A stretch of 40,057 nucleotides of DNA, taken from Anaerolineae bacterium (GTDB lineage Bacteria; Chloroflexota; Anaerolineae; J102). A program made the translations under genes and the position numbers. This document shows positions 6,001 to 35,879 of this stretch, piece after piece. The first letter of the stretch is position 1. The number at the start of each line of letters is the position of its first letter. The notes under the pieces are model-generated. The model saw only the letters and a list, made by a program, of their open reading frames with translations. It was not told the DNA's origin and did not search any database. The DNA is taken from assembly GCA_026991225.1 (NCBI GenBank), contig JALXCB010000158.1:1-40057 (forward strand), written 5' to 3'.

Positions 6001-6013
6001 GCTGCTGAAGACT

Positions 6014-6037
6014 TCGTAGGTCTGCGCAGACCTACGA
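6014..6037. repeat. 24-bp perfect palindrome downstream of YfhO gene
   Basis: The perfect palindrome is centred between 6025 and 6026 and built on GTAGGTCTGCGCAGACCTAC, with partial pairing a few bases beyond. It lies 13 bp after the YfhO stop. It could act as a transcription-ending hairpin, but there is no T-run. Its style is that of dispersed palindromic repeats. Confidence 0.6.
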
Positions 6038-6203
6038 GGTCTGGGGGAAGCGCGCCAACGCCCTCTAATTTGGGAATTGCTGGTTGTTTACGCAACACGA
6101 ATACGAGAAAACGGGGATGATTGTTGACACCATCGCCGTAATCCATTACCATTCACTCATCCCACTGAACACCGAACACTGATTCCTGTCTACTGGACTC
6201 CTC

Positions 6204-8380: not shown

Positions 8381-9283
8381 ATGCCCTTACTCGGCCCCCT
8401 CGCCGCTCTCGGCGCCTCCTTCTGCTGGTCCTTTACGTCCACCTTCTTCACCCTGGCCGGACGCCGGGTGGGGTCGATGGTGGTCAACCGCACCCGCCTC
8501 GTGCTGGCCGTCATCTTCCTGATTTTCACCCATTGGGTCATGCTGGGGACGCCCTTCCCCTGGCACGCGCCGCCCGAGCGTTGGTTCTGGCTGGGGTTGT
8601 CGGGCGTGTTGGGGCTGGTCATCGGCGACGCCATGCTGTTCCAGAGCTTCATTTGGCTGGGGCCACGGCTTTCGATGCTGATCATGAGCCTGGTTCCCGT
8701 GATCAGCACGCTGTTCGCCTGGGTGCTGTTGGGCGAGCGGTTGTCCGCCTGGCAGATCACGGCGATTTTGATCACGGTGGGGGGCGGGGCCTCGGTGATC
8801 CTGGATCAGAAGGGCAACAATGCCGCCATCGTGGAGGGGAAGGCGTACTTGATCGGGGTGTTGTTTGGATTGGGGGGCGCGATGGGGCAGGCGACCGGGT
8901 TGATCGCGGCCAAGAAAGGGCTGGCGGGCGATTTCTCCGCGCTGTCAGGCACGCTCATCCGTATGTTCGTGGCGATGATTGTGTTGTGGGCCGTCACCAT
9001 CCTCATGCGTCGGGGACAAGAGACGCTGCGCAAGCTCAAGGAAGACCGCAAAGCGTTCAAGTATCTGCTCGCCGGCGCGTTCTTCGGGCCGTTCCTGGGC
9101 GTCTATCTCTCCCTGGTGGCGGTGCAGGCCACGCAGGTGGGCATCGTCAGCACGCTTATGTCTCTCCCTCCCGTCTTTCTTCTCCCCATCAGTCATTTCG
9201 TCTTTGGCGAGCGCATCGGCTTGCGCGCGGTGATCGGCACGCTGGTGGCCATAACGGGCGTGGCCATGCTGTTGTTGATGTGA
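8381..9283 (+). CDS. EamA/DMT-family transporter
   Basis: 300 residues with ten predicted membrane helices in two EamA repeats of five. The first repeat ends around LVPVISTLFAWVLLGERLSAWQITAILITVGGGASVIL. The second ends LMSLPPVFLLPISHFVFGERIGLRAVIGTLVAITGVAMLLLM. The GERL/GERIG motif after helices 4 and 9 is the hallmark of drug/metabolite transporters. Substrate cannot be told. It is divergent from the toxin-antitoxin pair and converges on korB. Confidence 0.85.
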   Translation: MPLLGPLAALGASFCWSFTSTFFTLAGRRVGSMVVNRTRLVLAVIFLIFTHWVMLGTPFPWHAPPERWFWLGLSGVLGLVIGDAMLFQSFIWLGPRLSMLIMSLVPVISTLFAWVLLGERLSAWQITAILITVGGGASVILDQKGNNAAIVEGKAYLIGVLFGLGGAMGQATGLIAAKKGLAGDFSALSGTLIRMFVAMIVLWAVTILMRRGQETLRKLKEDRKAFKYLLAGAFFGPFLGVYLSLVAVQATQVGIVSTLMSLPPVFLLPISHFVFGERIGLRAVIGTLVAITGVAMLLLM

Positions 9284-9491: not shown

Positions 9492-11003
9492 TTACAGGTG
9501 TTTGATCAAGAATTCAGCCAGGTCGCGGGAGGAGATGACGCCCACAGGGTGTAGGTTCTCATCCACGACGGGCAGGTGGCGGAAGCGACGTTGGGTCATG
9601 AAATGGACTGCTTCCAGCACGGAGGCGTAGAGAGGCAGGGCCACGGGCTCGGTGGTCATGAACTCCTGAACGGTGACCTGATGCAGGTCGATATCCTTGC
9701 CCGCAACCCGGTCCAGGATATCCGCCTCGGTGATGATGCCCATGAGATGGCGGTCGGGACTGACCACCAGCAGGGCGCCGATGCCATGCTCTCGCATCAG
9801 GTGCAACGCGTGGTCCATGAGCGCATCGGGCCGGATGGTGATGGGGGCCTTGGGCTTGAGATCATGCAAGGTCATGCTCGCAAGCTGCTCGGCCAGATCC
9901 GCCTCGGGCGCTTCTACACCCAGCAACTCGTCGATGTAAGCCTCGTCCAGGCTGGCGTCCACCTGGCCGCGCACCTCCGCCTTGATCTCCTCCTCTTCCG
10001 CGGTCACTTCCCATGTGTCGGCGTTGAAGTAAAGATCGTGGAGGTCGCCTTCGCCCTTTTGGGCCTTGACCTGCTGGATCTGGCCCCACATGCCCTCGCA
10101 ATAGGTGGGCTTGGTCACCTGATAAATGATGCCCAGGGGCATGGGATAATCGAGCTGACTGAGGAGGAAGGCGTTTTCCAGAGACGTGGGGTCGTGGATG
10201 GTGATATCCTCGATGCTGTACTCTTCGCCGATCTCCACCACCTTGAAACCGCCCTGCTCTTCATCGAGAACGAGCCCCTTGTCCCTATTCTTGCCGAAGA
10301 CCATGGGCTTGCCCGCCTCCAGGAAGAGGTCATTATCCGCCCGCTTCTTGCGGTCGGAATAATCGAACCAGGCGCCATTGTTGAAGATAACGCAGTTCTG
10401 CATGATCTCGATGAAGGCGAGCCCCTTATGCAGCGCGGCCTGATACATGATCTCGCCCATCTCCTTCTGCAAGACGTCGATGGTGCGGGCCACAAAGGTG
10501 GCACCGGAGGCCAGGGCCACTTCCACCGGATAGAGGGGGCGTTCGATGCTACCGTAGGGCGAAGATTTCGTCTTGGTGCCCACGGGCGAGGTGGGAGAAA
10601 GCTGGCCCTTGGTCAGGCCGTAGATGCGGTTGTTGAACAGGAGGATGTTCAGGTCCACATTGCGTCGCCCCGCGTGCAGGATGTGGTTGCCGCCGATGGA
10701 GAGGGCGTCGCCGTCGCCGGTGATCACCCACACGCTGAGGTCGGGATTGGAGAGCTTGATGCCCGTGGCCAGCGTGGGCGCGCGGCCGTGGATGCTGTGG
10801 ATGCCGTAGGTGTCCATGTAGTAGGGAAAACGGCTGGAGCAACCGATGCCGGACACGAACACGAACTTCTCTTTAGGGATGCCCAGCCGCGGCAGGGTCT
10901 TCTGCACCGTGGCCAGGATGGCATAGTCGCCACAGCCGGGGCACCAGCGCACGGTCTGATCGGACATGAAGTCCTTGCGGGTAAGTTTGATTTCTGTAGC
11001 CAT
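9492..11003 (-). CDS. korB: 2-oxoacid:ferredoxin oxidoreductase beta subunit fused to a CBS pair
   Basis: 503 residues, against roughly 280-350 for ordinary KorB. Residues 1 to about 350 are the thiamine-diphosphate-binding beta subunit: VRWCPGCGDY near residue 19, SGIGCSSRFPYY, ITGDGDALSIGGNH with the ThDP/Mg motif, and NNRIYGLTKGQLSPTS. After an acidic linker, residues 384-503 form two CBS motifs, MDHALHLMREHGIGALLVV...GIITEADILDRV and VLEAVHFMTQRRFRHLPVV...GVISSRDLAEFL. KorAB converts 2-oxoglutarate (or a related oxoacid) and CoA to acyl-CoA with reduction of ferredoxin. The CBS pair probably binds adenine nucleotides and could tune the enzyme (inference). It starts 2 bp after korA ends. 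Confidence 0.88.
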   Translation of the reverse strand: MATEIKLTRKDFMSDQTVRWCPGCGDYAILATVQKTLPRLGIPKEKFVFVSGIGCSSRFPYYMDTYGIHSIHGRAPTLATGIKLSNPDLSVWVITGDGDALSIGGNHILHAGRRNVDLNILLFNNRIYGLTKGQLSPTSPVGTKTKSSPYGSIERPLYPVEVALASGATFVARTIDVLQKEMGEIMYQAALHKGLAFIEIMQNCVIFNNGAWFDYSDRKKRADNDLFLEAGKPMVFGKNRDKGLVLDEEQGGFKVVEIGEEYSIEDITIHDPTSLENAFLLSQLDYPMPLGIIYQVTKPTYCEGMWGQIQQVKAQKGEGDLHDLYFNADTWEVTAEEEEIKAEVRGQVDASLDEAYIDELLGVEAPEADLAEQLASMTLHDLKPKAPITIRPDALMDHALHLMREHGIGALLVVSPDRHLMGIITEADILDRVAGKDIDLHQVTVQEFMTTEPVALPLYASVLEAVHFMTQRRFRHLPVVDENLHPVGVISSRDLAEFLIKHL

Positions 11004-11005
11004 GA

Positions 11006-12871
11006 TTATTCTCCAGCCAGTAATTCGTCGATTTTAGCGCTGATTTCGCTGACTTTGAAGGGACGGCCTTGCACCTTGTTCAGGGAGATGACGTCCACCA
11101 GATAACGATCCCGTAGCAACATGGCCAGCTGGCCCATGTTCAGTTCGGGAACCAGGATCTTGTCGTAGTTTTGCAGGATGAAGCCCAGGTTGCGGGGGAA
11201 GGGATTGAGATAGCGGATGTGCACCTGCGCCACCGACTGGCCCTTGGCCTGCGCCTGCGACACCGCGGCGTGGATGGCGCCATAGGTGCCGCCCCAACCC
11301 ACCACCAGCAATTCCGCCTCCTCGGGCCCGAAAACCTCCTGCTCGGGGATGATGTCGGCCAGGCGGGCGACCTTGGCGGCCCGTTCGTTGACCATGCGCT
11401 GATGATGTTCGGGCGCATAGGAGACATTGCCATACTCGGGCGATTTCTCCAGACCACCCACGCGATGCTCCAGACCCGGCGTGCCCGGAATGGCCCAGGG
11501 CCGCCCCAAGGTGACCGGGTCTCGCTTGTAGGGCAGGAATTTGCCGTCGGGGCCGTTGGGCTCGGTGGGGTGCTCGATGACGATGGGCTCGATGGTGTCG
11601 GGATCGGGGATGCGCCAGGGCTCCGAGCTATTGGCCAGATAGCCGTCCATCATGACGGCCACAGGCGCCATGGCTCGCACGGCCAGGCGATAGGCCTCGA
11701 TGACCGTGTCGAAACAATCCGCGGGGGACGAGGCGGCCAGCACGGGCATGGGGCTTTCGCCATTGCGCCCGAACATGATCTGCAACAGGTCCGACTGCTC
11801 CACCTTGGTGGGCAGGCCGGTGCTGGGACCGCCGCGCTGGACGTCGATGACGACCAGAGGCAGCTCCAGCATCACCGCCAGGTTCATGGCCTCGCTTTTG
11901 AGGGCGATGCCCGGACCGCTGGTGCCGGTGACGGCCATGGCTCCGGCGAAAGCCGCGCCCACGGTCGCACCCATGGCCGCGATCTCATCCTCGGCCTGGA
12001 AGGTGATGACGTCGAAGTTGCGCAGAGGAGCCAAATTGTGCAGGATGTCGCTGGCCGGGGTGATGGGATACGCGCCGTAGAACAGGGGCTTGTTCGCCTT
12101 GCGGGCGGCGGTGACCAGCCCGATGGCCGCGGCCTCGCTGCCCGAGATCTTGCGATAGGTGCCGGGGGGCAGCTTCGCGGGCTTGATGCGGAATCGGGTC
12201 TGGAAGATCTCCGCGGTCTCGCCATAAAAATAGCCCGCCTGCAGGGCCTTGATATTGGCTTCCGCCACCGCGGGAGCGCGCTTCCCGAACTTCTTCTTCA
12301 CCCATTCGATGGAAGGCTCCAGCGGGCGGTCGAACATCCAGTAGATAAGGCCCAGGGCGAAGAAGTTCTTACTGCGGTCAATGCTCTTCTTGTCCAGCCC
12401 CTCCACATCCTGCACTGCATTACGATTGAGCGTGGTGATGGGCACCGGGATGACCTGGAACTGATTGAGGGAGCCATCCTCCAGGGGATTGCTCTCATAC
12501 CCGGCCTTCTTCAGATTCCCTGGCGTAAACGCATCGGTGTTGACGATGATGATGGCGCCTGGCTCCAGATCGGGCAGGCTCACCTTGAGCGCAGCCGGAT
12601 TCATCGCCACCAGCACATGAGGCGAATCCCCCGGCGTCCAGATATCATGCTCGGCCAGATGCACCTGGAAGCCGCTGACGCCGCCCAGGGTGCCGGCAGG
12701 GGCCCGGATTTCCGCCGGGTAGTCGGGGAAGGTGCTGATGTCGTTGCCTACGATGGCAGCCGTGTTCGTGAATTGACTACCCGTGAGCTGCATGCCGTCG
12801 CCCGAATCGCCTGCAAAGCGAATGACGACATCCTCCAGCTCCTTGACGGGCACATGCTTTTGTTCGGTCAT
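11006..12871 (-). CDS. korA: 2-oxoacid:acceptor oxidoreductase alpha subunit (gamma-alpha fusion)
   Basis: 621 residues. The N-terminal gamma domain (about 10-190) reads VVIRFAGDSGDGMQLTGSQF...FPDYPAEIRAPAGTLGGVSGFQVH. The alpha pyrimidine-binding domain follows, with PLFYGAYPITPASDILHNLA, FQAEDEIAAMGATVGAAFAG and TGTSGPGIALKSEAMNLA. The C-terminal transketolase-like domain has ELLVVGWGGTYGAIHAAV. This order is that of KorA with fused gamma subunit, acting with KorB in the cytoplasm on 2-oxoglutarate or a related oxoacid. Gene order CBS protein, korA, korB with gaps of 69 and 2 bp indicates an operon. Substrate specificity is inferred from family resemblance only. Confidence 0.88.
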   Translation of the reverse strand: MTEQKHVPVKELEDVVIRFAGDSGDGMQLTGSQFTNTAAIVGNDISTFPDYPAEIRAPAGTLGGVSGFQVHLAEHDIWTPGDSPHVLVAMNPAALKVSLPDLEPGAIIIVNTDAFTPGNLKKAGYESNPLEDGSLNQFQVIPVPITTLNRNAVQDVEGLDKKSIDRSKNFFALGLIYWMFDRPLEPSIEWVKKKFGKRAPAVAEANIKALQAGYFYGETAEIFQTRFRIKPAKLPPGTYRKISGSEAAAIGLVTAARKANKPLFYGAYPITPASDILHNLAPLRNFDVITFQAEDEIAAMGATVGAAFAGAMAVTGTSGPGIALKSEAMNLAVMLELPLVVIDVQRGGPSTGLPTKVEQSDLLQIMFGRNGESPMPVLAASSPADCFDTVIEAYRLAVRAMAPVAVMMDGYLANSSEPWRIPDPDTIEPIVIEHPTEPNGPDGKFLPYKRDPVTLGRPWAIPGTPGLEHRVGGLEKSPEYGNVSYAPEHHQRMVNERAAKVARLADIIPEQEVFGPEEAELLVVGWGGTYGAIHAAVSQAQAKGQSVAQVHIRYLNPFPRNLGFILQNYDKILVPELNMGQLAMLLRDRYLVDVISLNKVQGRPFKVSEISAKIDELLAGE

Positions 12872-25058: not shown

Positions 25059-25138
25059 AAACGCCACCCTAGCTCAGCCGGTAGAGCAACGCACTCGTAA
25101 TGCGTCGGTCGCCGGTTCGAATCCGGCGGGTGGCTCCT
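25059..25138 (+). repeat. Left attachment repeat (attL)
   Basis: Identical over 80 bp to 35800-35879; the match ends at 25058 (C versus A) and 25139 (T versus G). It contains the entire tRNA gene plus 4 bp upstream and 3 bp downstream. The strand-exchange point lies somewhere inside it and cannot be placed more exactly from sequence. Confidence 0.92.
25063..25135 (+). tRNA. tRNA-Thr(CGT), left copy
   Basis: 73 nt folds as a full cloverleaf: acceptor GCCACCC/GGGTGGC, D stem GCTC/GAGC, anticodon stem ACGCA/TGCGT with loop CTCGTAA (anticodon CGT at 25096-25098), variable loop CGGTC, T stem GCCGG/CCGGC with loop TTCGAAT, discriminator T. CCA is not encoded. It has the host promoter upstream and the element's integrase downstream, and is probably the functional copy. 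Confidence 0.95.
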
Positions 25139-25215: not shown

Positions 25216-26157
25216 GTGGCCAAAAACCACCGAACCCAAAACGCCCAACTGTCCTTGATGGAGGCCGTTGAAGCCTTCATCTTGGATGGTTTGGCGCGCC
25301 GTCTATCACCGCATACGTTAGGGATTTATCGGGAAAAGCTATCGCATTTCATCACATGGGCCGAGTCGCAGCAAATCGAGACGATGGCCCATGTGGACGC
25401 GCGCGCCCTACGCCTTTATCTTGTCCACCTGCAAGAGACGGGCCATAACGCCGGTGGACAGCACACCCACGCCCGCATCCTTCGGGCCTGGCTCAATTTC
25501 CTGGAAGCGGAAGGGCTCATCATGGATTCGCCCATGCGCCGGGTGAAAATGCCGCGATTGCCGAAGCCCCAGCCGGACGTGTTGACGCGGGAGGAGGTGC
25601 AAAAGCTGCTGGATGCTGCGCAGAACAACCGGGACAAGGCGCTGATTCTGGCCCTGCTGGACACGGGCGCGCGTGTGTCTGAATTCGTGGCCCTGAACGT
25701 GGGCGACGTGGACGCGTCTGGGGCTGTGCAAATCCATCATGGCAAGGGAGATAAGGCCCGCACTGTCTATCTTGGCTACAAGGCCCTGAAGGCGCTCAGA
25801 CGTTGGCTGTGGGAGCGTGAGGACGCCTACACGCTCGATTCTCCCTTGTGGACGTCCCTTCACCACCCTGAGCGCGGCGTGAGGCTCACCACCAACGCCG
25901 TGCGCCTCATCCTTGTCCGCCTGGGGCAACGGGCGAAGTTGACACGCCGCATCTCGCCCCACATGTTCCGCCGCACGTTTGCGCTGTGGTGTCTGCGCGA
26001 TGGGATGGATATCTACACCCTGGCCCGCCTCATGGGCCATGCCGACATTGCCACCTTACGCCATTATCTGGCCCTGGCCGAGATGGACGCCGCGGCCGCG
26101 CACCGACGACATGGGCCAGTGAACGGCTATCTTAGCTCACAGGAGGGAGACTCATGA
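25216..26157 (+). CDS. Tyrosine recombinase, left integrase
   Basis: 313 residues, GTG start with GGAGG 5 bp upstream. The N-terminal SAM-like DNA-binding domain (about 12-100) reads AFILDGLARRLSPHTLGIYREKLSHF. The catalytic domain has the full set R153 (DTGARVSEF), K177 (HGKGDKART), H249 and R252 (SPHMFRRTF), H275 (MGHADIATL) and the nucleophile Y284. It resembles XerC/D-type integrases and should act on the tRNA-Thr attachment site. It lies 77 bp after the left tRNA and overlaps the next gene by ATGA. In the integrated state it can be read from the tRNA promoter; in the circle, from the right-end promoter. Confidence 0.93.
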   Translation: MAKNHRTQNAQLSLMEAVEAFILDGLARRLSPHTLGIYREKLSHFITWAESQQIETMAHVDARALRLYLVHLQETGHNAGGQHTHARILRAWLNFLEAEGLIMDSPMRRVKMPRLPKPQPDVLTREEVQKLLDAAQNNRDKALILALLDTGARVSEFVALNVGDVDASGAVQIHHGKGDKARTVYLGYKALKALRRWLWEREDAYTLDSPLWTSLHHPERGVRLTTNAVRLILVRLGQRAKLTRRISPHMFRRTFALWCLRDGMDIYTLARLMGHADIATLRHYLALAEMDAAAAHRRHGPVNGYLSSQEGDS

Positions 26158-26630: not shown

Positions 26631-27109
26631 GCAAGCGCAAGTCCACCATCATCGAATTGAAGCCCGTTTCATCCCTGGATGACCCCAACGCGCCCCAAAC
26701 CTATGTCCCCGTGCGCGCCCCCGACGCCGGGCCGGGCGACTTGGCAACGGTGGACGCGGCCGCGTTGGCGGAACGGCAAATGACAGCCCAGCCCGTGGTG
26801 GAAAAGCTGGTTGGCAGTTATCAAGACCGCGCCATCGGCTTCTCTATCAAGACGTGGCAGGTGTCGCTTTTGTTTGGCGTCATCGCCTGGCTGTTGGCCC
26901 GCGTGGGCGCGGGCGTGCCCCTGTTCAGCGTGCGGGCACTGCTCATCCTTGCCCTGGGCGCGGGCGTGGTGTGGTTTGCCGCGTTCGCCTTGGACTTGCT
27001 GCTATCGCCCGCGGGGGTGGCGTGGTACAAGGCCCGTCGCTTCTGGAATTACATGGACAGGGAGCAGAAGGAACGCTTCGACTACTGGCGCAGCCTGCGC
27101 CGGGACTAA
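26627..27109 (+). CDS. Membrane protein of unknown function
   Basis: 160 residues, with GGAGG before the ATG and a 4-base overlap with the previous gene. A polar, partly disordered N-terminal part (about 1-75) contains LKPVSSLDDPNAPQTYVPVR. Two hydrophobic helices follow (about 85-103 and 108-130, with LFGVIAWLLARVGAGVPL and LLILALGAGVVWFAAFALDLLL). A basic and aromatic tail, WYKARRFWNYMDREQKERFDYW, comes last. I do not recognise a family. Together with the previous gene it may form one membrane complex. Confidence 0.65.
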   Translation: MSKRKSTIIELKPVSSLDDPNAPQTYVPVRAPDAGPGDLATVDAAALAERQMTAQPVVEKLVGSYQDRAIGFSIKTWQVSLLFGVIAWLLARVGAGVPLFSVRALLILALGAGVVWFAAFALDLLLSPAGVAWYKARRFWNYMDREQKERFDYWRSLRRD

Positions 27110-27140
27110 ACCCATCTCTCACCCAAGGAGGCTTTTTCTC

Positions 27141-27446
27141 ATGGAACGCATCCAAATGCAACGCATCATCGACGGCATCCGCTACGACACCGAGAAGGCG
27201 ACTCTCATCGCTCACAATGTCTTTTGGGACGGCCACAACTTCGAGCGACATGGGCGCAACACGTGGCTTTATCGCACGCCCAACGGGCGTTACTTCACCG
27301 TGACGGGCACCCTGTGGCAGGGGGAGCGGGACACGCTGCGCCCTGTGGACGAAGAAGAAGCCCGCCGTCTGTACGAAACCATGTTGCCCGAGCATGAAGT
27401 GCCCTACGAAGAGGCGTTTCCCCATATCACCATCCAAGACGCGTGA
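27141..27446 (+). CDS. Small hypothetical protein, phage/plasmid type
   Basis: 101 residues with a strong AAGGAGG site. The sequence IIDGIRYDTEKATLIAHN...NTWLYRTPNGRYFTVTGTLW resembles small proteins often seen in phages and plasmids (pattern GxxYdTekA...LYrTpxGxyF). Their function is unknown. A C-terminal acidic helix follows. It is the first of three small unknown genes before the gap at 28379. Confidence 0.65.
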   Translation: MERIQMQRIIDGIRYDTEKATLIAHNVFWDGHNFERHGRNTWLYRTPNGRYFTVTGTLWQGERDTLRPVDEEEARRLYETMLPEHEVPYEEAFPHITIQDA

Positions 27447-27454
27447 GGTGAATC

Positions 27455-27775
27455 ATGAACCGAATGATGGTTTCTTGCTACAAAGGATTGGCCCCGGTAT
27501 CGTTTCCCGCGGATTGGATTGAGGGAATCGACTATGAGCATAGTTTTGCCGCCGCGGGAGGACGGGCGCAGATACGTTTCCCTAATGGCAAGGCGTTTGA
27601 GGTTTGGGTGACATCACCGCCCGACTTCGGCAAAGTGGAGCGCCATGTCCGACGCCTGTCTGATGAGGAGATTGCCCGCATTCCCTGGGGGCCTTTCTGT
27701 CCGCCGTGGGAGAGCTACCAAACGGCCAAGCTGTTTGGCCACGCTGCGCCCATCGAGTTGGATAAGGTGGATTGA
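27455..27775 (+). CDS. Small hypothetical protein
   Basis: 106 residues; GAGGTG precedes the ATG. The protein looks like a compact beta-rich fold (VSFPADWIEGIDYEHSF...RAQIRFPNGKAFEVWV) followed by a helix VERHVRRLSDEEIARIPWG. It starts 8 bp after the previous gene, so it is in the same transcript. No family recognised. Confidence 0.6.
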   Translation: MNRMMVSCYKGLAPVSFPADWIEGIDYEHSFAAAGGRAQIRFPNGKAFEVWVTSPPDFGKVERHVRRLSDEEIARIPWGPFCPPWESYQTAKLFGHAAPIELDKVD

Positions 27776-27835
27776 CAACCCCTCTCGCCGCCGCCGTGGC
27801 CCCGAGGCGGACAAAGTATCGGGGCGGAGAATGTC

Positions 27836-28378
27836 ATGGACAGACAAATCAGCGCCTTCTACGCCCGCAAGCCCGAGGTGCGCCGGGAGAGCCGCACGGT
27901 GTACCGCAAGGCCCACCAGCGGGCCAAGAAAAAGGCGGAGAGCCTTTCGCGATTGGCCAAGGCGAGGGCCGCCGCGGAACTCGCCCACGAAGCCCTGCAC
28001 GCGGTGGCCGTGTTGGCCTATGAAACTTTGAAGGATGGCACGCCCGTGAACGTGGACCCAGTGACGGGCGATTTGCTGGTAGTCGCGCCCTGGAGCTCGA
28101 AACGATATCACGAGTATGGGCTGCGCCGTTCTGAGGCGGACGTGCTACGGGCCTATCTGCTGCAATTGCAAGCCCTGGCGCGAAAGGGGAAGACGGCCCT
28201 TCCGCCCCTGTTTACCTTCGACGTGGTGAGCCGCCGTTGGGCCGTGAACAAAGCCGACTATCCCACCTTCGAGGCTGCGGAGCGCTGGCTGGCCAGATAC
28301 CAGCTCACGCCCGAAGCGTGGCTTCAGTGGCGCGACCATATCCGCAAGAAGCGCCGGAAGTGGCGGAAGAAGGGGTGA
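27836..28378 (+). CDS. Hypothetical basic protein
   Basis: 180 residues, strongly basic at both ends (RKAHQRAKKKAESLSRLAKA near the N-terminus; RDHIRKKRRKWRKKG at the C-terminus), with a helical centre. The charge suggests nucleic-acid contact, but no known domain is visible. GGAG lies upstream of the ATG. It closes the integrase-proximal gene series; the next gene has its own promoter. Confidence 0.55.
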   Translation: MDRQISAFYARKPEVRRESRTVYRKAHQRAKKKAESLSRLAKARAAAELAHEALHAVAVLAYETLKDGTPVNVDPVTGDLLVVAPWSSKRYHEYGLRRSEADVLRAYLLQLQALARKGKTALPPLFTFDVVSRRWAVNKADYPTFEAAERWLARYQLTPEAWLQWRDHIRKKRRKWRKKG

Positions 28379-28482
28379 ACCACGCCGCGCACGGTGTGAA
28401 CCAACCCCCGCGCCCCACCGGGCAAAGGGTGGACTAAACCCGCCCACAACGAAACGCAATCCGACCCGTTCCCTTTTTTAGC

Positions 28483-29513: not shown

Positions 29514-30043
29514 ACGCCACAAAAAAAGCCCCGTGGGCAGACGGGGCGACACTAAGAGGGGCAATGCGAAGCTTTGCTTCTGCCCCCATTGTAGCAGATG
29601 ACGCGCGCGGCGTCAAGGGTCGCGGCGTGCCCATCTACGTGAACGGGCGCGCTGTGGGCCATGTCGAGGGCGACACGTTCTACAAGACGCTGCGGGCGTC
29701 TGTCCACTTCCTGAAGCGCCCGCCCGCTATCGCCTTCGACGTGTCCAGCCTTTTCGACGCCCAGGACGCGGGCGCAACAAAGGTGCATATCACTGACCAG
29801 GAGACGGGGCGCGTGTATGTAGCCCGCATCGCCGACATTCTGCGGGATGGTCGCCGGTTCAACCGGGGCTTTGGCGACCAGGTTTACTATCTGCTGACCC
29901 GCTGGCGACACCCCGACGCACCGCAGCAAATGACCCTCTTCGACGCCCTCGAATGTGGGGAGGCCCGGCCCGGTCGCCAAACTAGAACGGGCCTCCCCCG
30001 AGGCGAAAGCCTCCTCTCGCGAGAGAAGGAGGTAGCCTCATGA
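29510..30043 (+). CDS. Hypothetical protein between copy control and primase
   Basis: 177 residues from ATG 29510, which overlaps the RHH stop; an in-frame ATG at 29564 with AAGAGG upstream would give 159 residues and better avoids the low-quality N-terminus. The core reads GVPIYVNGRAVGHVEGDTFYKTLRASVHFLKRPPAIAFDVSSLFDAQDAGATKVHITDQETGRVYVARI, a mixed alpha/beta domain. I recognise no family. The antisense RNA at 29521-29581 covers its 5' end including the second ribosome site. Its stop overlaps the primase start by ATGA, so its translation probably controls primase translation. Confidence 0.65.
   Translation: MNATKKAPWADGATLRGAMRSFASAPIVADDARGVKGRGVPIYVNGRAVGHVEGDTFYKTLRASVHFLKRPPAIAFDVSSLFDAQDAGATKVHITDQETGRVYVARIADILRDGRRFNRGFGDQVYYLLTRWRHPDAPQQMTLFDALECGEARPGRQTRTGLPRGESLLSREKEVAS
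29521..29581 (-). ncRNA. Predicted ~61-nt antisense RNA, copy-number control type
   Basis: On the minus strand a start near 29581 (7 bp after a TACAAT box) leads to a perfect intrinsic terminator at 29547-29521: GCCCCGT, loop CTGCCC, ACGGGGC, then seven T. The 5' part has a second hairpin GAAGC-AAA-GCTTC. The RNA is fully complementary to the 5' end of the gene at 29510, including the ATG at 29564 and its ribosome site, and to the + strand hairpin 29558-29586. Size, two-hairpin form and position next to a CopG-like gene are those of plasmid counter-transcribed RNAs. Not experimentally known. Confidence 0.65.
29588..29616 (-). promoter_or_regulatory. Promoter of the antisense RNA
   Basis: On the minus strand, TTGACG (29616-29611), a 17-bp spacer and TACAAT (29593-29588). 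Both boxes match the consensus at 5 of 6 bases with optimal spacing. It lies inside the coding sequence of the 177-residue gene, pointing towards the RHH gene. Confidence 0.65.
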
Positions 30044-32184
30044 TTGTATCACAGAGTGTGTTGCAACGCATCCCCAGCGAATTGCGCGAGCTGCGCCGCT
30101 GGATTGTGCATCGGGACAAAAAGCCCTGGAACGTGACCACCGACCGTCCCCTTGCGGGATGGCAGAAACCGGGGGCGTGGATGGGCTTCAAGGAAGCCAT
30201 TCCCCTTGTCGCCCAGGGGTTGGCCGATGGCCTGGGTTTTGTCTTCGCTGGCAACAACACGCCTTTTGTGGGCCTCGATTTGGATGATTGCGTGAGTTGG
30301 GAAGGCGGTGAGGCCACCCTGAACGCGTGCGCGTCGGGGATGCTTGACCTTTTCCCCGTCGCCTACTGGGAGTACTCGCCCAGCGGGAAGGGCCTGCATT
30401 GCATCGTGAAAGCCGCCCCGAGCGCCTGGGAGGGCGTGTCGAAGCTGAAGGTGCAAAACTTCGAGGATTGCACCAATGTTGAGATTTTCGCCAACGCCGG
30501 GTATCTCACCTTCACGGGCAACACGTGGCAGGATGAGGTCAGCTTCGAGGATTACACCGGGGAACTGGCCGAGCTGATTCGCGTTCTGGGGGCGCATAAG
30601 CGCCGGGGGCAGGTGAAACCTATCCCGGCATCCAATAACGGCCACAGAGCGCCTGAGAGCGCCCTAGAGGACGCCCTGACGCCCGAGGACGTGCGGGCCT
30701 GCCTGGACGTCATCCCAGCGGATGATTATGACGTTTGGATTAAGGTCGGGGCCGCGCTCAAAACCGAGCTGGGAGACGCGGGCTTCACGCTGTGGGATGA
30801 TTGGAGCGCCAAGAGTCCCAACTACGGGGACACCGTGGACAAATGGCCGCGGCTGCCCACCGGGGCGACCTACGGAAGCCTTATCGCCCTGGCCCGCGAC
30901 TTCCAACCTGGCTTTCTGACGCCCAGCGCCCAGGCCCTGAAGGCGCGAGCCAACGGAAACCGGCACATGACCAGGGGCAACAAGGGGGAACGCACAGAGA
31001 GAGAGCCGCCGCCTTGGCTGGGCCACCCGAAAGCTGAAGAGGCGCAGGCGTTACCCCCCGAACCGGCTATCTGGGAGCGCTGGGCCGCGGGAGCCCTGGG
31101 GTTGGCGCAGGCGTTGGAGGGGCGGGAATCGCCGCCCTGGGTGGTGGATAGATTCATTCGCGCTGGAAGCCTGAACATTGTCTATGGCGCGCCTGGCAGC
31201 ATGAAGTCCATGCTCCTGGCCGACCTGGCCCTTTGTGTGGCCGCGGGCCGTTCCTGGCTGGAAGGAAAACGCCTGAAAGACTGGATGAAAGCGGACGAAA
31301 CCCCCGGCATTCCCACCCTGGCCCGTCCTGTCATTTGGCTTGACCTGGACAATGGACGTCTGACCACCCTCGACCGGTTTGGGGCGCTGGCCCGCGGGCA
31401 TGGCGCGGCCCCGGACGCGCCACTGCATATCCTGGCCATGCCGCAGCCCTGGCCCACATTGGACAATGATGACAACGCCCGAGCGTTGGAACTTCTGACA
31501 TTAGCCTATAATGCCGGGCTAATCGTCATCGACAATCTAGGGTTGGTGGCCGGGCAAATCGAAGAAAACAACGCCCGCATGGCCTCAGTGATGGGCCGTC
31601 TTCGCAACCTGGCGGAGGAGACCGGGGCCGCGGTCGTGGTCATCCATCACCAGCGCAAAGCGGGCGTTTTGGGGCCAGGCGTGCGCCGTGGGGAGAGCCT
31701 GCGCGGGCATTCCAGTATCGAGGCGAGCCTGGACAGCGCCTTTCTAATCGAGCGGGAGGAGGGAAGCGATAAAGTGCAGCTAATTCCCACGAAAATTAGA
31801 AATGGGCCTTGGCCCAAGCCGCTGGTCGCCATCTTCACCTACACACATAAGCCTGATGGGAATGATTTGCAGGAAGCCCGTTTCTTCCAAACGGAGCCAG
31901 ATAAGGCGAACACAGAGACACGTTTGACCCTGGAAATCCTGCGCCATGCCGATGAGGCTGAAGGTAAAACGAAGCTGGTGGCCATGGTCCAAGTTGCATG
32001 GGGAGATGATGCTACCAGACCGGGCGAAAAGACCATTCGCGCCCATATCGAAAAGCTGGTAGCCAAGGGCCTTTTAGAGGAGGAGCCGCCACCGCCTGGA
32101 AAGGGTGCGCGGGCGGGAAAACGCTATCGTTTGACGCCAGATGGATGGCATTTTTTGAACGCCAACGGAGGCGAAAATGGCTGA
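30040..32184 (+). CDS. Primase-polymerase/helicase replication protein
   Basis: 714 residues. Residues 1-165 form an archaeo-eukaryotic-type primase-polymerase domain: metal ligands D80 and D82 in FVGLDLDDC, the SxH-type motif SPSGKGLH with H120, and a later VEIF...GYLTFTG. Residues 211-288 form a PriCT-2 domain (DVRACLDVIPADDYDVWIKVGAALK). Residues 375-600 are a RepA-like AAA ATPase with Walker A GAPGSMKS (383-390), LIVIDNLGLV as Walker B, and AVVVIHHQRKAG as sensor. The C-terminus is a winged helix (TIRAHIEKLVAKGLL). It should unwind and prime the element's own origin. ATGA overlap with the gene before; an iteron array follows. Confidence 0.88.
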   Translation: MIVSQSVLQRIPSELRELRRWIVHRDKKPWNVTTDRPLAGWQKPGAWMGFKEAIPLVAQGLADGLGFVFAGNNTPFVGLDLDDCVSWEGGEATLNACASGMLDLFPVAYWEYSPSGKGLHCIVKAAPSAWEGVSKLKVQNFEDCTNVEIFANAGYLTFTGNTWQDEVSFEDYTGELAELIRVLGAHKRRGQVKPIPASNNGHRAPESALEDALTPEDVRACLDVIPADDYDVWIKVGAALKTELGDAGFTLWDDWSAKSPNYGDTVDKWPRLPTGATYGSLIALARDFQPGFLTPSAQALKARANGNRHMTRGNKGERTEREPPPWLGHPKAEEAQALPPEPAIWERWAAGALGLAQALEGRESPPWVVDRFIRAGSLNIVYGAPGSMKSMLLADLALCVAAGRSWLEGKRLKDWMKADETPGIPTLARPVIWLDLDNGRLTTLDRFGALARGHGAAPDAPLHILAMPQPWPTLDNDDNARALELLTLAYNAGLIVIDNLGLVAGQIEENNARMASVMGRLRNLAEETGAAVVVIHHQRKAGVLGPGVRRGESLRGHSSIEASLDSAFLIEREEGSDKVQLIPTKIRNGPWPKPLVAIFTYTHKPDGNDLQEARFFQTEPDKANTETRLTLEILRHADEAEGKTKLVAMVQVAWGDDATRPGEKTIRAHIEKLVAKGLLEEEPPPPGKGARAGKRYRLTPDGWHFLNANGGENG

Positions 32185-32193
32185 TTTTTTGCC

Positions 32194-32366
32194 TGCCAAA
32201 CGGGGGGGCCGTTTGGCAACGGCTTGCCAAACGGGAATTGAGGGCCGTTTGGCACGTTTGGCAGCCGTTTGGTCACCGTTTGGCAGCGTTTGGCAAGCCG
32301 TCTTCCGTAGTGCGCAGACCCCGTTTGGCATTTGGCACACACTATATAGGTGTGTGTGCCAAACGG
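32194..32366. repeat. Iteron array with central dyad, candidate replication origin
   Basis: TGCCAAACGG or its complement occurs at 32194, 32209, 32225, 32245, 32255, 32265 (one change), 32276, 32287, 32321 and 32357, in both orientations, within 173 bp. The unit is 9-10 bp with about ten copies. Around the last two, TTTGGCACACAC (32331-32342) and GTGTGTGCCAAA (32352-32363) form a perfect 12-bp inverted repeat around TATATAGGT. The array follows the replication gene by 10 bp. Iterons plus an AT-rich dyad next to rep are typical of plasmid origins. A putative 76-codon frame through it is an artefact. Confidence 0.78.
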
Positions 32367-32411
32367 GAAACGCAACGCCCCCTTTTTTGTTGACCAAACC
32401 CACCTAGAGCA

Positions 32412-32630
32412 ATGGACGTGAGAGCACAAGTCGCGAAGGTGGACGCGCTTCTTGCCGAACTGCATCGCGAAGCATGGCGCACCCGTCCCCGTACCGAGCG
32501 ATTGCGCACCCTCGCCGAAGATTTGGCGTGGGAAATCGAGCCTTTGCGGGCGCGATTGTTGAACGAAGACCCCCTTCCTGACCTGCGGGCCTTGTCCCGC
32601 ACCCACAGAATAGGAGAGACCTACCCATGA
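32412..32630 (+). CDS. Small helical hypothetical protein
   Basis: 72 residues, ATG 32412, entirely helical and charged (DVRAQVAKVDALLAELHREA...RTERLRTLAEDLAWEIEPLR). It lies directly after the iteron array and overlaps the next gene by ATGA. Function unknown; there is no recognisable DNA-binding motif. Confidence 0.55.
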   Translation: MDVRAQVAKVDALLAELHREAWRTRPRTERLRTLAEDLAWEIEPLRARLLNEDPLPDLRALSRTHRIGETYP

Positions 32631-33295
32631 CCACCGAAGCACAACCCATCACCGAAGCCGAAGCCGAGGCCCTGCTGGCCCGTGTGGTCCGCGAGAAGGC
32701 CGCCACCGAAGCGCGCCTGAGCAAGACGCGCACCGAACTGGGAGAGCCGCTATACAAGCCCGAGCGACAAGCGCAAGCCGAAGCCAACGCCCGCGCACCC
32801 TTCGAGGCTGCCCTGAGCGCAACGCTGGCCCGGGCCCGCGCCGTAGAGGATGCGGCAACCGACGAACTGCGAAAGTTGGATGATATGCCCATCGCCCCAC
32901 TGCTGGACACCGACACGCTGCAACGCGCCGCCGCTATGCGCCCGTTTGCCGAAGATGAAGCCGAGCGCCTGGACGCTAAGCGCCTGGCTGCCCGTCTGGC
33001 CGCGCTGGACGGAAGCGACAAGGCCGCCGTGCTGGCATGGCGCACCGCTGCAGAAAAGCGCCTGGCTGTCATGATGGGCGACCTGGCAGAAAATCCGGCA
33101 CATGTAAGCCTGCGCCTCGCAATCAATGACTTGAAATCTGCGATTGCTAATCTGCGATTGCCGGAAGAGCGCGAGCTGGACGCCAGGCGCCGCAAGCTGA
33201 CAGACCAAAAACTATTGGCCCGGCAATTGCGCCTGCAGGCCGAAGCGCTGTCACCGGAAAAGCAAAAAGAAATCCTACAACGCTATGGAGTTTGA
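32627..33295 (+). CDS. Coiled-coil hypothetical protein
   Basis: 222 residues, very rich in Ala, Glu, Arg and Leu, and predicted to be almost wholly alpha-helical with coiled-coil character (ITEAEAEALLARVVREKAAT; AVEDAATDELRKLDDM; LTDQKLLARQLRLQAEAL). Such proteins near an HTH of terminase small-subunit type occur in phages and phage-derived elements, but no specific family is recognised. It is preceded by an ATGA overlap and followed directly by the HTH gene, so the genes 32412-34234 form one transcript. Confidence 0.6.
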   Translation: MTTEAQPITEAEAEALLARVVREKAATEARLSKTRTELGEPLYKPERQAQAEANARAPFEAALSATLARARAVEDAATDELRKLDDMPIAPLLDTDTLQRAAAMRPFAEDEAERLDAKRLAARLAALDGSDKAAVLAWRTAAEKRLAVMMGDLAENPAHVSLRLAINDLKSAIANLRLPEERELDARRRKLTDQKLLARQLRLQAEALSPEKQKEILQRYGV

Positions 33296-33296
33296 C

Positions 33297-33677
33297 ATGA
33301 CCGCGCAAAAGAAGACACAGCGAAAATTGTCAACAAAGCAACGAAAGGCTATTCGCGCCCTGCTGGCCGGAATGAACGTGAGCGACGCCGCAGACGCCGC
33401 AGACGTGGCCCGTGGTACGCTATACACCTGGTTTGACAATCCCGACTTTATGGCGGAACTGCGAGCCGCAGAGCAAAAGGCGCTAGATGACGTGGCGCGC
33501 CGTATGGCGGGATTGACAGATAAGGCCGTTAACGTGCTGAAAGCGCAGATGGAAGACGAGCGAAGCGCCCAGGCATTAAGGGCTGCCCGCACTGTCATAG
33601 ACGCCGCCTTGAGGCTGCGCGAGGCCGTGGCCCTGGAAGAGCGCATCGCCGCCCTTGAGGCCCAGGTGGAAAAATGA
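33297..33677 (+). CDS. HTH protein resembling phage terminase small-subunit-like (phBC6A51-type) proteins
   Basis: 126 residues from ATG 33297; an alternative ATG lies 12 bp upstream. A helix-turn-helix LSTKQRKAIRALLAGMNVSDAADAADVARGTLYTWFDNPDFMAELR is followed by a long helix with DDVARRMAGLTDKAVNVLKAQM and RAARTVIDAALRLREAVALEERIAALE. This pattern is found in small phage HTH proteins sometimes called terminase small-subunit-like. No terminase large subunit exists here, so it may be a regulator or partition factor, or help a helper phage package the element. ATGA overlap with the next gene. Confidence 0.65.
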   Translation: MTAQKKTQRKLSTKQRKAIRALLAGMNVSDAADAADVARGTLYTWFDNPDFMAELRAAEQKALDDVARRMAGLTDKAVNVLKAQMEDERSAQALRAARTVIDAALRLREAVALEERIAALEAQVEK

Positions 33678-34234
33678 GCATCTTAGCACGCCTGCGCCGC
33701 CTGGAAGCCGCCATCACGCCAATTGACGCGGGCCCATTCTACTATGCCGTAGAGGATGAGGCCGGCATCACGCCCGAGATGGCCGGGGCAAAGGTTTACA
33801 TCGGCATAAGCCCCCGAGACTGGGATGACACGCCGGAAGATGATGAGGAGGCCATGAGCATCAAAGCACGTCTGAAAACGATAGAAAAAAGCCTGGCAAG
33901 GCGCGCAAAGAAAGACACCCATCTTGTCATGGTCTGGCCGGAAGAGGCATCGGAAGATGAAGATATGCAACACATAAAAATGACCTGGGGCGACACGCCG
34001 GAAGATGACGAAGACGCCGTCACCTTGCGCGTGGTATATGACACGCCGCCCCAGGCCACTGAGACGCCCCAGAAGGCCACACAGACGCCTGAGACGCTTC
34101 CTAAGCCATCACCGCAGCCGTGGCAGCCGCCACAGAAGACGCGGGCCGAACTGCTAGAAGCAGAACTGGCAGCCGAAGAGCGCCGCATGAGACGTCACAA
34201 CATAGAAATGCAAAAGCGTTTGAGGCACCGCTAG
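33674..34234 (+). CDS. Hypothetical protein with tandem internal duplication
   Basis: 186 residues. The opening MSILARLRRLEAA recurs at residue 61 as MSIKARLKTIEKS, and the segment WDDTPEDDEEA recurs as WGDTPEDDEDA, so the protein is a tandem duplication. The second unit starts with an in-frame ATG at 33854 preceded by GAGGAGG, so a shorter product may also be made. A Pro/Gln/Thr linker (TPPQATETPQKATQTPETLP) and a charged helix follow. The function is unknown. Confidence 0.6.
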   Translation: MSILARLRRLEAAITPIDAGPFYYAVEDEAGITPEMAGAKVYIGISPRDWDDTPEDDEEAMSIKARLKTIEKSLARRAKKDTHLVMVWPEEASEDEDMQHIKMTWGDTPEDDEDAVTLRVVYDTPPQATETPQKATQTPETLPKPSPQPWQPPQKTRAELLEAELAAEERRMRRHNIEMQKRLRHR

Positions 34235-34520: not shown

Positions 34521-35468
34521 ATGACGCACCTGCCCATCCCCACCCAAACCGCCGCCATCGAGCCGCACCGCGAGACGGCCAACCCCGCCCTTGTCTATCT
34601 CGCTTCCCTGCCCTCGCCCGAGTCCCGCCGCGTCATGCGCAGCGCGCTTGACGCCATCGCCCGCATGGTGAACCCCGAAGCCGCGGTGGAAACTTTCCCG
34701 TGGGCCTCGCTGCGTTTTGAGCATGTGGCCGCCATCCGCAGCGTCCTCATGGAACGCTACGCACCCGCCACCGCCAACCGTCATCTGTCCGCCCTCAAGG
34801 GCGTGCTCAAGGCCGCGTGGCAATTGGGCCTCATGTCCGACGCCGACTATATGCGGGCCGTGGACGTGAAAGGCGTCAAAGGCGAAACCTTGCCCACAGG
34901 CCGCATGTTGGACGCGTCCGAGGTGGCCGCGGTGGTGGCCGCGTGCAAAGCCGATAGCACCCCCGCGGGCGCGCGCGACGCCGCCCTGTTGGCCGTCATG
35001 CTGGCGGGAGGGCTGCGCCGGGCCGAAGTGGTGGGCCTCGACGTTGACGACTACAACCCTGAAACGGGCGAGCTCACCGTGCGGCATGGCAAAGGCCGCA
35101 AGGAGCGCATCGTGTGGCTCACCAACGGCGCCCGCCGGGCGCTGAACGCCTGGCTGGACGTGCGAGGCCGCGAACCCGGCCCGCTGTTCATGCCCATCAA
35201 TAAGGGCGGGCGCATCATTCCCAAACGGATGACTTCCCAAGCTGTTTACAACGTCCTGCGCAAGCGGGCCGAACAGGCGGGCGTCAAACCCTTCACACCC
35301 CACGACATGCGCCGCACTTTTGCCTCCACCCTTCTGGACAATGGCGCGGATTTGGCCGTGGTGTCCAAACTCATGGGCCATGCGAATATCACCACCACCG
35401 CCCGCTACGACAGGCGAGGCGAAGAGGCCAAGCGGGCCGCCGCGAGCCTGTTCCACTTCCCCTACTGA
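34521..35468 (+). CDS. Tyrosine recombinase, right integrase
   Basis: 315 residues, ATG 34521 with GAGAGG upstream. The N-terminal SAM-like domain (about 20-110) has RYAPATANRHLSALKGVLKA. The catalytic residues are complete: R166 (GGLRRAEVVGL), K191 (HGKGRKERI), H261 and R264 (TPHDMRRTF), H287 (LMGHANITTT) and the nucleophile Y296. It differs in sequence from the left integrase throughout, so the two are not a recent duplication. It ends 331 bp before the right repeat. It may serve integration, excision or resolution of replicated multimers. Confidence 0.93.
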   Translation: MTHLPIPTQTAAIEPHRETANPALVYLASLPSPESRRVMRSALDAIARMVNPEAAVETFPWASLRFEHVAAIRSVLMERYAPATANRHLSALKGVLKAAWQLGLMSDADYMRAVDVKGVKGETLPTGRMLDASEVAAVVAACKADSTPAGARDAALLAVMLAGGLRRAEVVGLDVDDYNPETGELTVRHGKGRKERIVWLTNGARRALNAWLDVRGREPGPLFMPINKGGRIIPKRMTSQAVYNVLRKRAEQAGVKPFTPHDMRRTFASTLLDNGADLAVVSKLMGHANITTTARYDRRGEEAKRAAASLFHFPY

Positions 35469-35799: not shown

Positions 35800-35879
35800 A
35801 AACGCCACCCTAGCTCAGCCGGTAGAGCAACGCACTCGTAATGCGTCGGTCGCCGGTTCGAATCCGGCGGGTGGCTCCT
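35800..35879 (+). repeat. Right attachment repeat (attR)
   Basis: Identical copy of 25059-25138, offset 10,741 bp. It is followed by the host terminator at 35882, so the chromosome resumes here. Confidence 0.92.
35804..35876 (+). tRNA. tRNA-Thr(CGT), right copy
   Basis: Identical in all 73 positions to the left copy, anticodon CGT at 35837-35839. It lacks the host promoter; a poor TTGACG/TTTTAT pair (35741-35771, spacer 19) or read-through from the 35475 promoter are the only visible sources of transcription. It has the native terminator just downstream. Confidence 0.93.

Follow-up and report, generated by a model that had tools for sequence, protein, structure and literature searches.

A mixed-orientation iteron array directly behind a PrimPol-helicase gene as a probable replication origin of a satellite-like island in Chloroflexota

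The window, a stretch of 40,057 nucleotides from an Anaerolineae bacterium (contig JALXCB010000158.1), contains an array of short repeats that is likely to serve an integrative satellite-like island as its replication origin, with the protein encoded directly upstream as the initiator. We base this reading on features of the sequence i.e. the array, the order of its sites, its joint passage with the gene, the domains predicted for the protein and the recurrence of the same layout in relatives. It is the best supported reading because two islands have the gene and the array in common as a block while the DNA around this block differs, and because homologs in a free phage-plasmid and in many other elements carry an array at the same 3' place.

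The array occupies 173 bp (32194-32366) and contains 11 sites resembling TGCCAAACGG, of which seven are exact (32194+, 32209-, 32225+, 32245-, 32276-, 32321- and 32357+), two have one mismatch (32254- and 32286-) and two have two mismatches (32265- and 32328-). Three sites lie on the plus strand and eight on the minus strand, in good agreement with an earlier note on this DNA, which had counted about ten copies in both orientations. The first part (32194-32234) runs plus, minus, plus, with iterons at 32194, 32209 and 32225; the second (32245-32295) consists of five direct iterons on the minus strand (32245, 32254, 32265, 32276 and 32286) at a pitch of 9-11 bp i.e. about one helical turn; and the third (32321-32366) holds two minus copies (32321 and a partial one at 32328) and a final plus copy (32357), which are the building blocks of a terminal palindrome. 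The inverted repeat that had been called perfect is indeed exact, with 12-bp arms, TTTGGCACACAC at 32331-32342 and GTGTGTGCCAAA at 32352-32363, on either side of the AT core TATATAGGT at 32343-32351, and the arms are the iterons themselves. The AT element amounts to only about 6 bp inside this palindrome, and from -20 to +330 relative to the stop codon of the PrimPol-helicase gene the richest 20 bp contain 13 A/T. The earlier proposal that iterons and an AT-rich element together form an origin is therefore best supported as regards an iteron-type origin beside an initiator gene, whereas a classical unwinding region is absent.

Within these 173 bp there are 19 core 7-mers (TGCCAAA or CCAAACG, either strand), compared with at most three when the window was shuffled 30 times under a first-order Markov model. 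The frequency of the motif over the whole window was rejected as evidence, since 55 sites with up to two mismatches were found against a shuffle mean of 51, which is not significant; it is therefore the clustering alone that is special. Seven of the ten exact copies of TGCCAAACGG in the 3.87-Mb genome lie inside the array and the other three are single (the reversed control pattern occurs three times), which shows that the array is not an ordinary dispersed repeat, a possibility that the earlier note had raised against itself. The single-strand folding of the array was strong (z -6.5), although this carries little weight because any inverted repeats would give it. Open reading frames cross the array (32145-32393 and others), an Rfam scan of 30000-34000 returned no family, and the GC skew, in which a shift had been anticipated, gave no consistent origin signal and was uninformative.

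The gene that the array adjoins (30040-32184, plus strand, 714 aa) encodes a PrimPol-type protein, which bears out its earlier description as a replication gene. Residues ∼18-169 matched the PDB primase entries 6k9a and 6a9w (E 6.5e-10 for 6k9a), which we take to be the primase of phage NrS-1; this phage was also matched by tblastn. Pfam assigned PriCT_2 to residues 219-285 (E 2.6e-13) and AAA_25 to residues 361-542 (E 1.5e-28), the latter being a RecA-fold helicase domain whose profile (A1, eight homologs) had RSF1010 RepA as its best PDB match (1g8y, E 1.9e-10). Foldseek likewise placed DnaB and RepA (1nlf/1olo/1g8y) at the top when run on the AlphaFold2 model, which was built from 20 sequences and had a mean pLDDT of 63.8, being good from about residue 350 and poor in the N-terminal half. 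In this model residues 622-710 form a helix-helix-helix-strand-strand-helix arrangement; folded alone, the C-terminal domain reached a mean pLDDT of 79.9 and was matched by Foldseek, though weakly, to regulators of the winged-helix type (PadR and MarR; lowest E 0.007). Residues 622-710 are thus predicted to be a C-terminal winged helix, which would be the natural candidate for reading the iterons. Across 42 arrays, motif similarity followed winged-helix similarity with a Mantel r of 0.15 and helicase-core similarity with an r of 0.19, i.e. the link to the winged helix is weak and no stronger than that to the helicase core, so this comparison does not single out the reader of the iterons.

Gene and array lie in an island of 10.7 kb between two identical 80-bp copies (100% identity) of tRNA-Thr(CGT). 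The attL-like copy (25059-25138, tRNA at 25063-25137) and the attR-like copy (35800-35879, tRNA at 35804-35878) form a direct repeat on the plus strand (tRNAs called by ARAGORN). The plus strand also encodes a XerC/D-like tyrosine recombinase (25216-26157; NCBIfam XerC, E 1.2e-53; phrog_1 integrase), a small-terminase-like protein (33285-33677; phrog_2538 terminase small subunit, E 2.2e-10) and a second tyrosine recombinase (34521-35468; Pfam Phage_integrase, E 1.5e-35), while the remaining island genes scanned encode proteins of unknown function. Among 13 island proteins compared with PHROGs there was no significant match to capsid, portal, tail or large terminase and one weak match to a connector (E 0.07). 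No recognised regulator of the stl/alpA type was found among the upstream proteins scanned, and no plasmid DNA matched at the nucleotide level. Elsewhere in the window, a near-perfect 34-bp palindrome lies between genes at 6009-6042.

A sister species of the same genus carries a second island, L002 (MAG contig JALWZT010000153.1), which spans 13.6 kb between 82-bp copies of the same tRNA and encodes an SSB, a RusA-like resolvase and a small terminase (Terminase_4, E 3.1e-16). The two islands have in common the first integrase gene (82% DNA identity), 26772-28473, 30079-32377 (85%) and the att region. The block 30079-32377 starts in the PrimPol-helicase gene and stops directly past the array, and the genes beyond it are unrelated. 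The L002 array has the same copy number, orientation order and palindrome as that of the window, including the five direct iterons in the same number and order; one copy of this middle row is shifted by 1 bp with its motif kept, and the palindrome differs by a single change, in the spacer. With ten mixed columns set aside, 73 of 78 iteron columns were kept compared with 89 of 106 spacer columns, which is slightly better by raw count. At the sequence level, then, the array travels with the PrimPol-helicase gene. Both islands look like phage satellites and may depend on a helper. The shared stretch 26772-28473 holds unknown genes, 85% identical to L002, with differing DNA on either side. The small terminases occupy a like position before the second integrase (33285-33677 in the window, 13327-13731 in L002) and belong to different families, which in otherwise related islands points to module exchange.

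We determined how often arrays follow related helicase genes by counting the commonest 7-mer, both strands taken together, in the first 200 bp behind each gene, with a threshold of at least five copies. Of 47 homologous genes whose 3' region was usable, 16 had such an array directly 3', compared with 5 of 299 other 500-bp windows at the same loci and 4 of 329 other genes of comparable contigs (3 of 328 once the window array, reached from the opposite strand, was left out). The Fisher values (∼1e-11 or smaller) are indicative only, as the controls have contigs in common and some of the loci are related to each other. Of 26 homologs in viral contigs, 24 were usable (one gene ran off and one region was too short), and after removal of the duplicates L111, L122, L124 and L126, 15 of 20 had at least four copies and 6 of 20 at least five. 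The arrays mostly start within ∼20 bp of the stop codon, and 20 of the 22 with at least five copies were of mixed orientation (15 of 16 in the first homolog set and 5 of 6 in the viral set). Mixed orientation therefore marks the geometry of the family: the earlier suggestion of a different initiator geometry stands, but as a family-wide feature and not as an oddity of the window element. As for conservation of the motif in homologous elements, it is kept in L002, whereas other relatives carry unrelated repeats that vary by element (AATCCCA, GGTTTTA, GTTGTGA, AGACTTA and others). Three or fewer copies were present in 26 of the 47 homologs, mostly weak ones, and the array was absent from the annotated phage relatives L170 and L171. 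Pairs of the TTTGGCA type were present in 8 of 200 relative genomes and equalled the window array only in G000 and G189; 34 viral stretches with such pairs contained no mixed cluster of the size of the window array and no helicase of this family. The largest cluster there (L079, 390-486) comprises eight direct TTTGGCA copies, mostly 12 bp apart, and is unlike the mixed array of the window.

These comparisons bear on the possibility that the chief role of the array is that of an operator or autoregulation site, through which the replication protein or another regulator controls the operon that follows. The array does sit between two co-directional gene groups, and dimeric repressors would fit inverted repeats. 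However, it is kept even though the following genes differ between the islands, at least ten sites far exceed what an operator needs, and the layout recurs behind helicase genes in varied contexts, so we regard this function as unlikely.

The design of the palindrome also recurs. Several arrays end with one or more iterons, a pyrimidine tract, a short AT core, a purine tract and one or more inverted iterons, e.g. CCCCCCCTTTAAGGGGGG in L010 and CCCCTCCTTATAGGGG in L116. With five duplicate loci dropped beforehand, a strict AT-core palindrome rule picked out 21 of 79 genes, or 14 of 72 when seven genes found via the palindrome itself were excluded, compared with 0 of 323 controls; the window palindrome falls outside this rule because its spacer is 9 nt long and asymmetric. 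When ACCCCCCTTTAAGGGG alone was sought in viral contigs, 29 stretches were found, and at seven of these loci (L143/L151, counted once, L144, L152, L157, L160, L161 and L163, with only three repeats in L157) repeats flank ACCCCCCTTTAAGGGG and a helicase gene of the same family ends ∼30-215 bp upstream. Repeats surround ACCCCCCTTTAAGGGG without such a gene in L142/L150, and in L164 the helicase gene is 1.7 kb away from the palindrome. The window-type palindrome CACACACTATATANGTGTGTG occurred once in the viral contigs, 195 bp behind a homologous helicase gene. The N-termini of these helicases vary, with DnaB-N in L117, Toprim in L144 and, as a match below the curated cut-off, a DnaG zinc ribbon in L163, and Pfam found no further primase family at the N-terminus in L152. 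Many of the 29 stretches, with L137, L140, L145, L148, L153, L158 and L162 among them, are near-identical ACCCCCCTTTAAGGGG hairpins without iterons, and these are probably transcription terminators of related phages.

The layout is also seen on a free replicon and in NrS-1. The contig of the homolog L013 corresponds in length and match position to NZ_LN890657.1, which is plasmid III of Candidatus Promineifilum breve; in this circular phage-plasmid of 40.8 kb, a PriCT-2 gene and a helicase gene are followed by an array and palindromes. In NrS-1 (L169), eleven AAGTGTA repeats in mixed orientation start directly behind the primase gene, and this array contains the published primase start site, the 8-mer TTTGGTTA; no description of it was found in the literature searched, outside which the 2017 enzyme paper lies. 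By analogy, the iterons of the window could serve the PrimPol domain for priming and not the winged helix for binding, in which case the array would still be an origin but the primase would recognise opened DNA. The PDB entries closest to this domain are those that we take to be the NrS-1 primase. The available part of one report has NrS-1 PrimPol starting at TTTGGTTA (PMC8718748), which has TTTGG in common with TTTGGCA, and an excerpt of another gives two copies of this site in the NrS-1 genome (PMC7102993). Nevertheless, the same kind of palindrome or array accompanies helicase-winged-helix homologs that have DnaB-N (L117), Toprim (L144) or no Pfam primase domain (L152) in place of PrimPol, and the duplex geometry of the array would be needless for single-strand priming, which makes priming sites an improbable account of the iterons.

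If the small terminase read the array as a packaging (pac/cos) site, this would fit the small-terminase-like protein of the window island and Terminase_4 of L002, and satellites may carry packaging sites, according to the portion of the review available (PMC6092414); but the two terminases are of different families while the arrays are almost identical, and the arrays lie behind the helicase gene and not a terminase gene, which renders this function very unlikely. Least probable of all is that the terminal palindrome does no more than terminate transcription and that the remaining sites are a decayed repeat, for although the iteron-free C-tract/TTTAA/G-tract hairpins of the viral set resemble terminators, no T-run directly follows the window palindrome, its arms are iterons, and copy number and orientation are kept between species.

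If the array is the origin of the island, we infer that replication could proceed as follows. After excision of the island, copies of the PrimPol-helicase would bind the iterons via the C-terminal winged helix, and the central direct iterons, with their one-turn spacing, would gather the protein along a single side of the helix. In the terminal palindrome, iterons face inwards across the short AT core, and this would be the site of DNA opening, where helicases would be loaded in opposite directions and PrimPol would start DNA.

An origin of this kind is already known from PICI/SaPI elements. In the portion of the review available, PICI origins directly follow rep on its 3' side and comprise an AT-rich region flanked by two sets of iterons (PMC6092414). 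The window array, as a candidate origin, is in the matching position directly 3' of a primase/rep gene, and the island shares with these elements the iterons, the combination of integrase and terS and the lack of structural genes. The integrase and duplicated attachment site of PICIs have their counterpart in two tyrosine recombinases and the 80-bp tRNA-Thr copies; as in PICIs, phage structural and lytic genes were lacking among the 13 window-island proteins scanned, with the small terminase as the sole significant packaging match; and sizes of 10.7 kb (window) and 13.6 kb (L002) compare with a typical 12-15 kb. The island differs in having a ∼6-bp AT core within a palindrome whose arms are iterons, together with a block of direct repeats, instead of an AT-rich region between two iteron sets, and in its RecA-fold (RepA/DnaB-like) helicase and Chloroflexota host. 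What is new is thus that a RecA-fold helicase is combined with short iterons of mixed orientation and with a palindrome that has iterons as arms and a very short AT core, a layout of which no description was found in the literature searched (most subscription papers lie outside it).

Other systems share single elements of this layout. Classical iteron origins also have repeats adjoining the rep gene, but these are all direct (3 plus and 8 minus here) and are accompanied by an extended AT-rich unwinding region (at most 13 A/T per 20 bp here). NrS-1 has a homologous PrimPol and a mixed array directly 3' of its gene that holds TTTGGTTA, but its repeat is AAGTGTA and its own helicase domain is AAA+-like in the part of the report available (PMC7102993). 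By sequence profile, no solved structure is closer to the helicase domain than that of RSF1010 RepA (1g8y), which makes the window protein a putative hexamer; RepA, RepB' and RepC are separate proteins in the available text (PMC4234260), whereas the window protein fuses primase, helicase and winged helix, and its iterons are short and of mixed orientation compared with RSF1010 oriV. The same text places a stem-loop origin of pRN1 downstream of a primase-helicase-winged-helix gene (PMC4234260). PrimQH-type proteins combine a primase, PriCT, a RepA/DnaB-type ATPase and a C-terminal winged helix for which origin recognition has already been suggested (PMC5862659, in part); the window protein shares this order of AEP primase, PriCT, P-loop helicase and winged helix. 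The accessible part of that paper proposes no origin sequence (PMC5862659), and array and palindrome are the addition made here. In SaPI and SCCmec initiator helicases the C-terminal domain acts on short downstream repeats, those of SCCmec Cch2 lying just past the operon (PMC7581432, in part), and the window protein would bind similarly. Unlike the window protein, Cch2 is described there as a 3'-5' helicase that binds AAGTG direct repeats, with inverted repeats dispensable (PMC7581432).

A much broader reading is tentative, and we think it rather doubtful as a whole: RecA-fold helicases with a C-terminal winged helix may be widespread self-sufficient initiators of bacterial mobile elements and phages, with the origin directly behind the gene and following a common plan irrespective of the repeat sequence i.e. 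a mixed array and a terminal palindrome of iteron pairs facing each other across a pyrimidine tract, a short AT core and a purine tract. Opening of this palindrome would let two helicases be loaded back to back, the pyrimidine tracts would be start sites of the diverging leading strands, and the N-terminal primases (PrimPol, DnaG-type or none) would be interchangeable.

If the origin reading of the array is right, the origins of many uncultured mobile elements would be predictable from sequence, directly behind an AAA_25 helicase gene ending in a winged helix, and a compact fused primase-helicase-initiator with its own origin would be useful for testing how RecA-fold rings are loaded onto closed duplex DNA. 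Satellite-like islands with a PICI-like layout would also be extended to Chloroflexota; no paper on Chloroflexi and a phage satellite was found in the literature searched.

Some elements have more than one array. Behind its helicase gene, L083 (G405:C488) carries the whole array and palindrome twice, the second copy being slightly diverged and lying ∼225 bp beyond the first. L004 (Paludibacterium denitrificans) has two GGGAACA arrays in both orientations ∼2 kb apart (8984-9225 and 10920-11024), a pair that resembles the ori/crr pair of phage P4. One viral contig (IMGVR_UViG_3300029202_000233; L113 and L115) carries two related helicase genes, each followed by an AAACTAA array and a C-tract/AT/G-tract palindrome.
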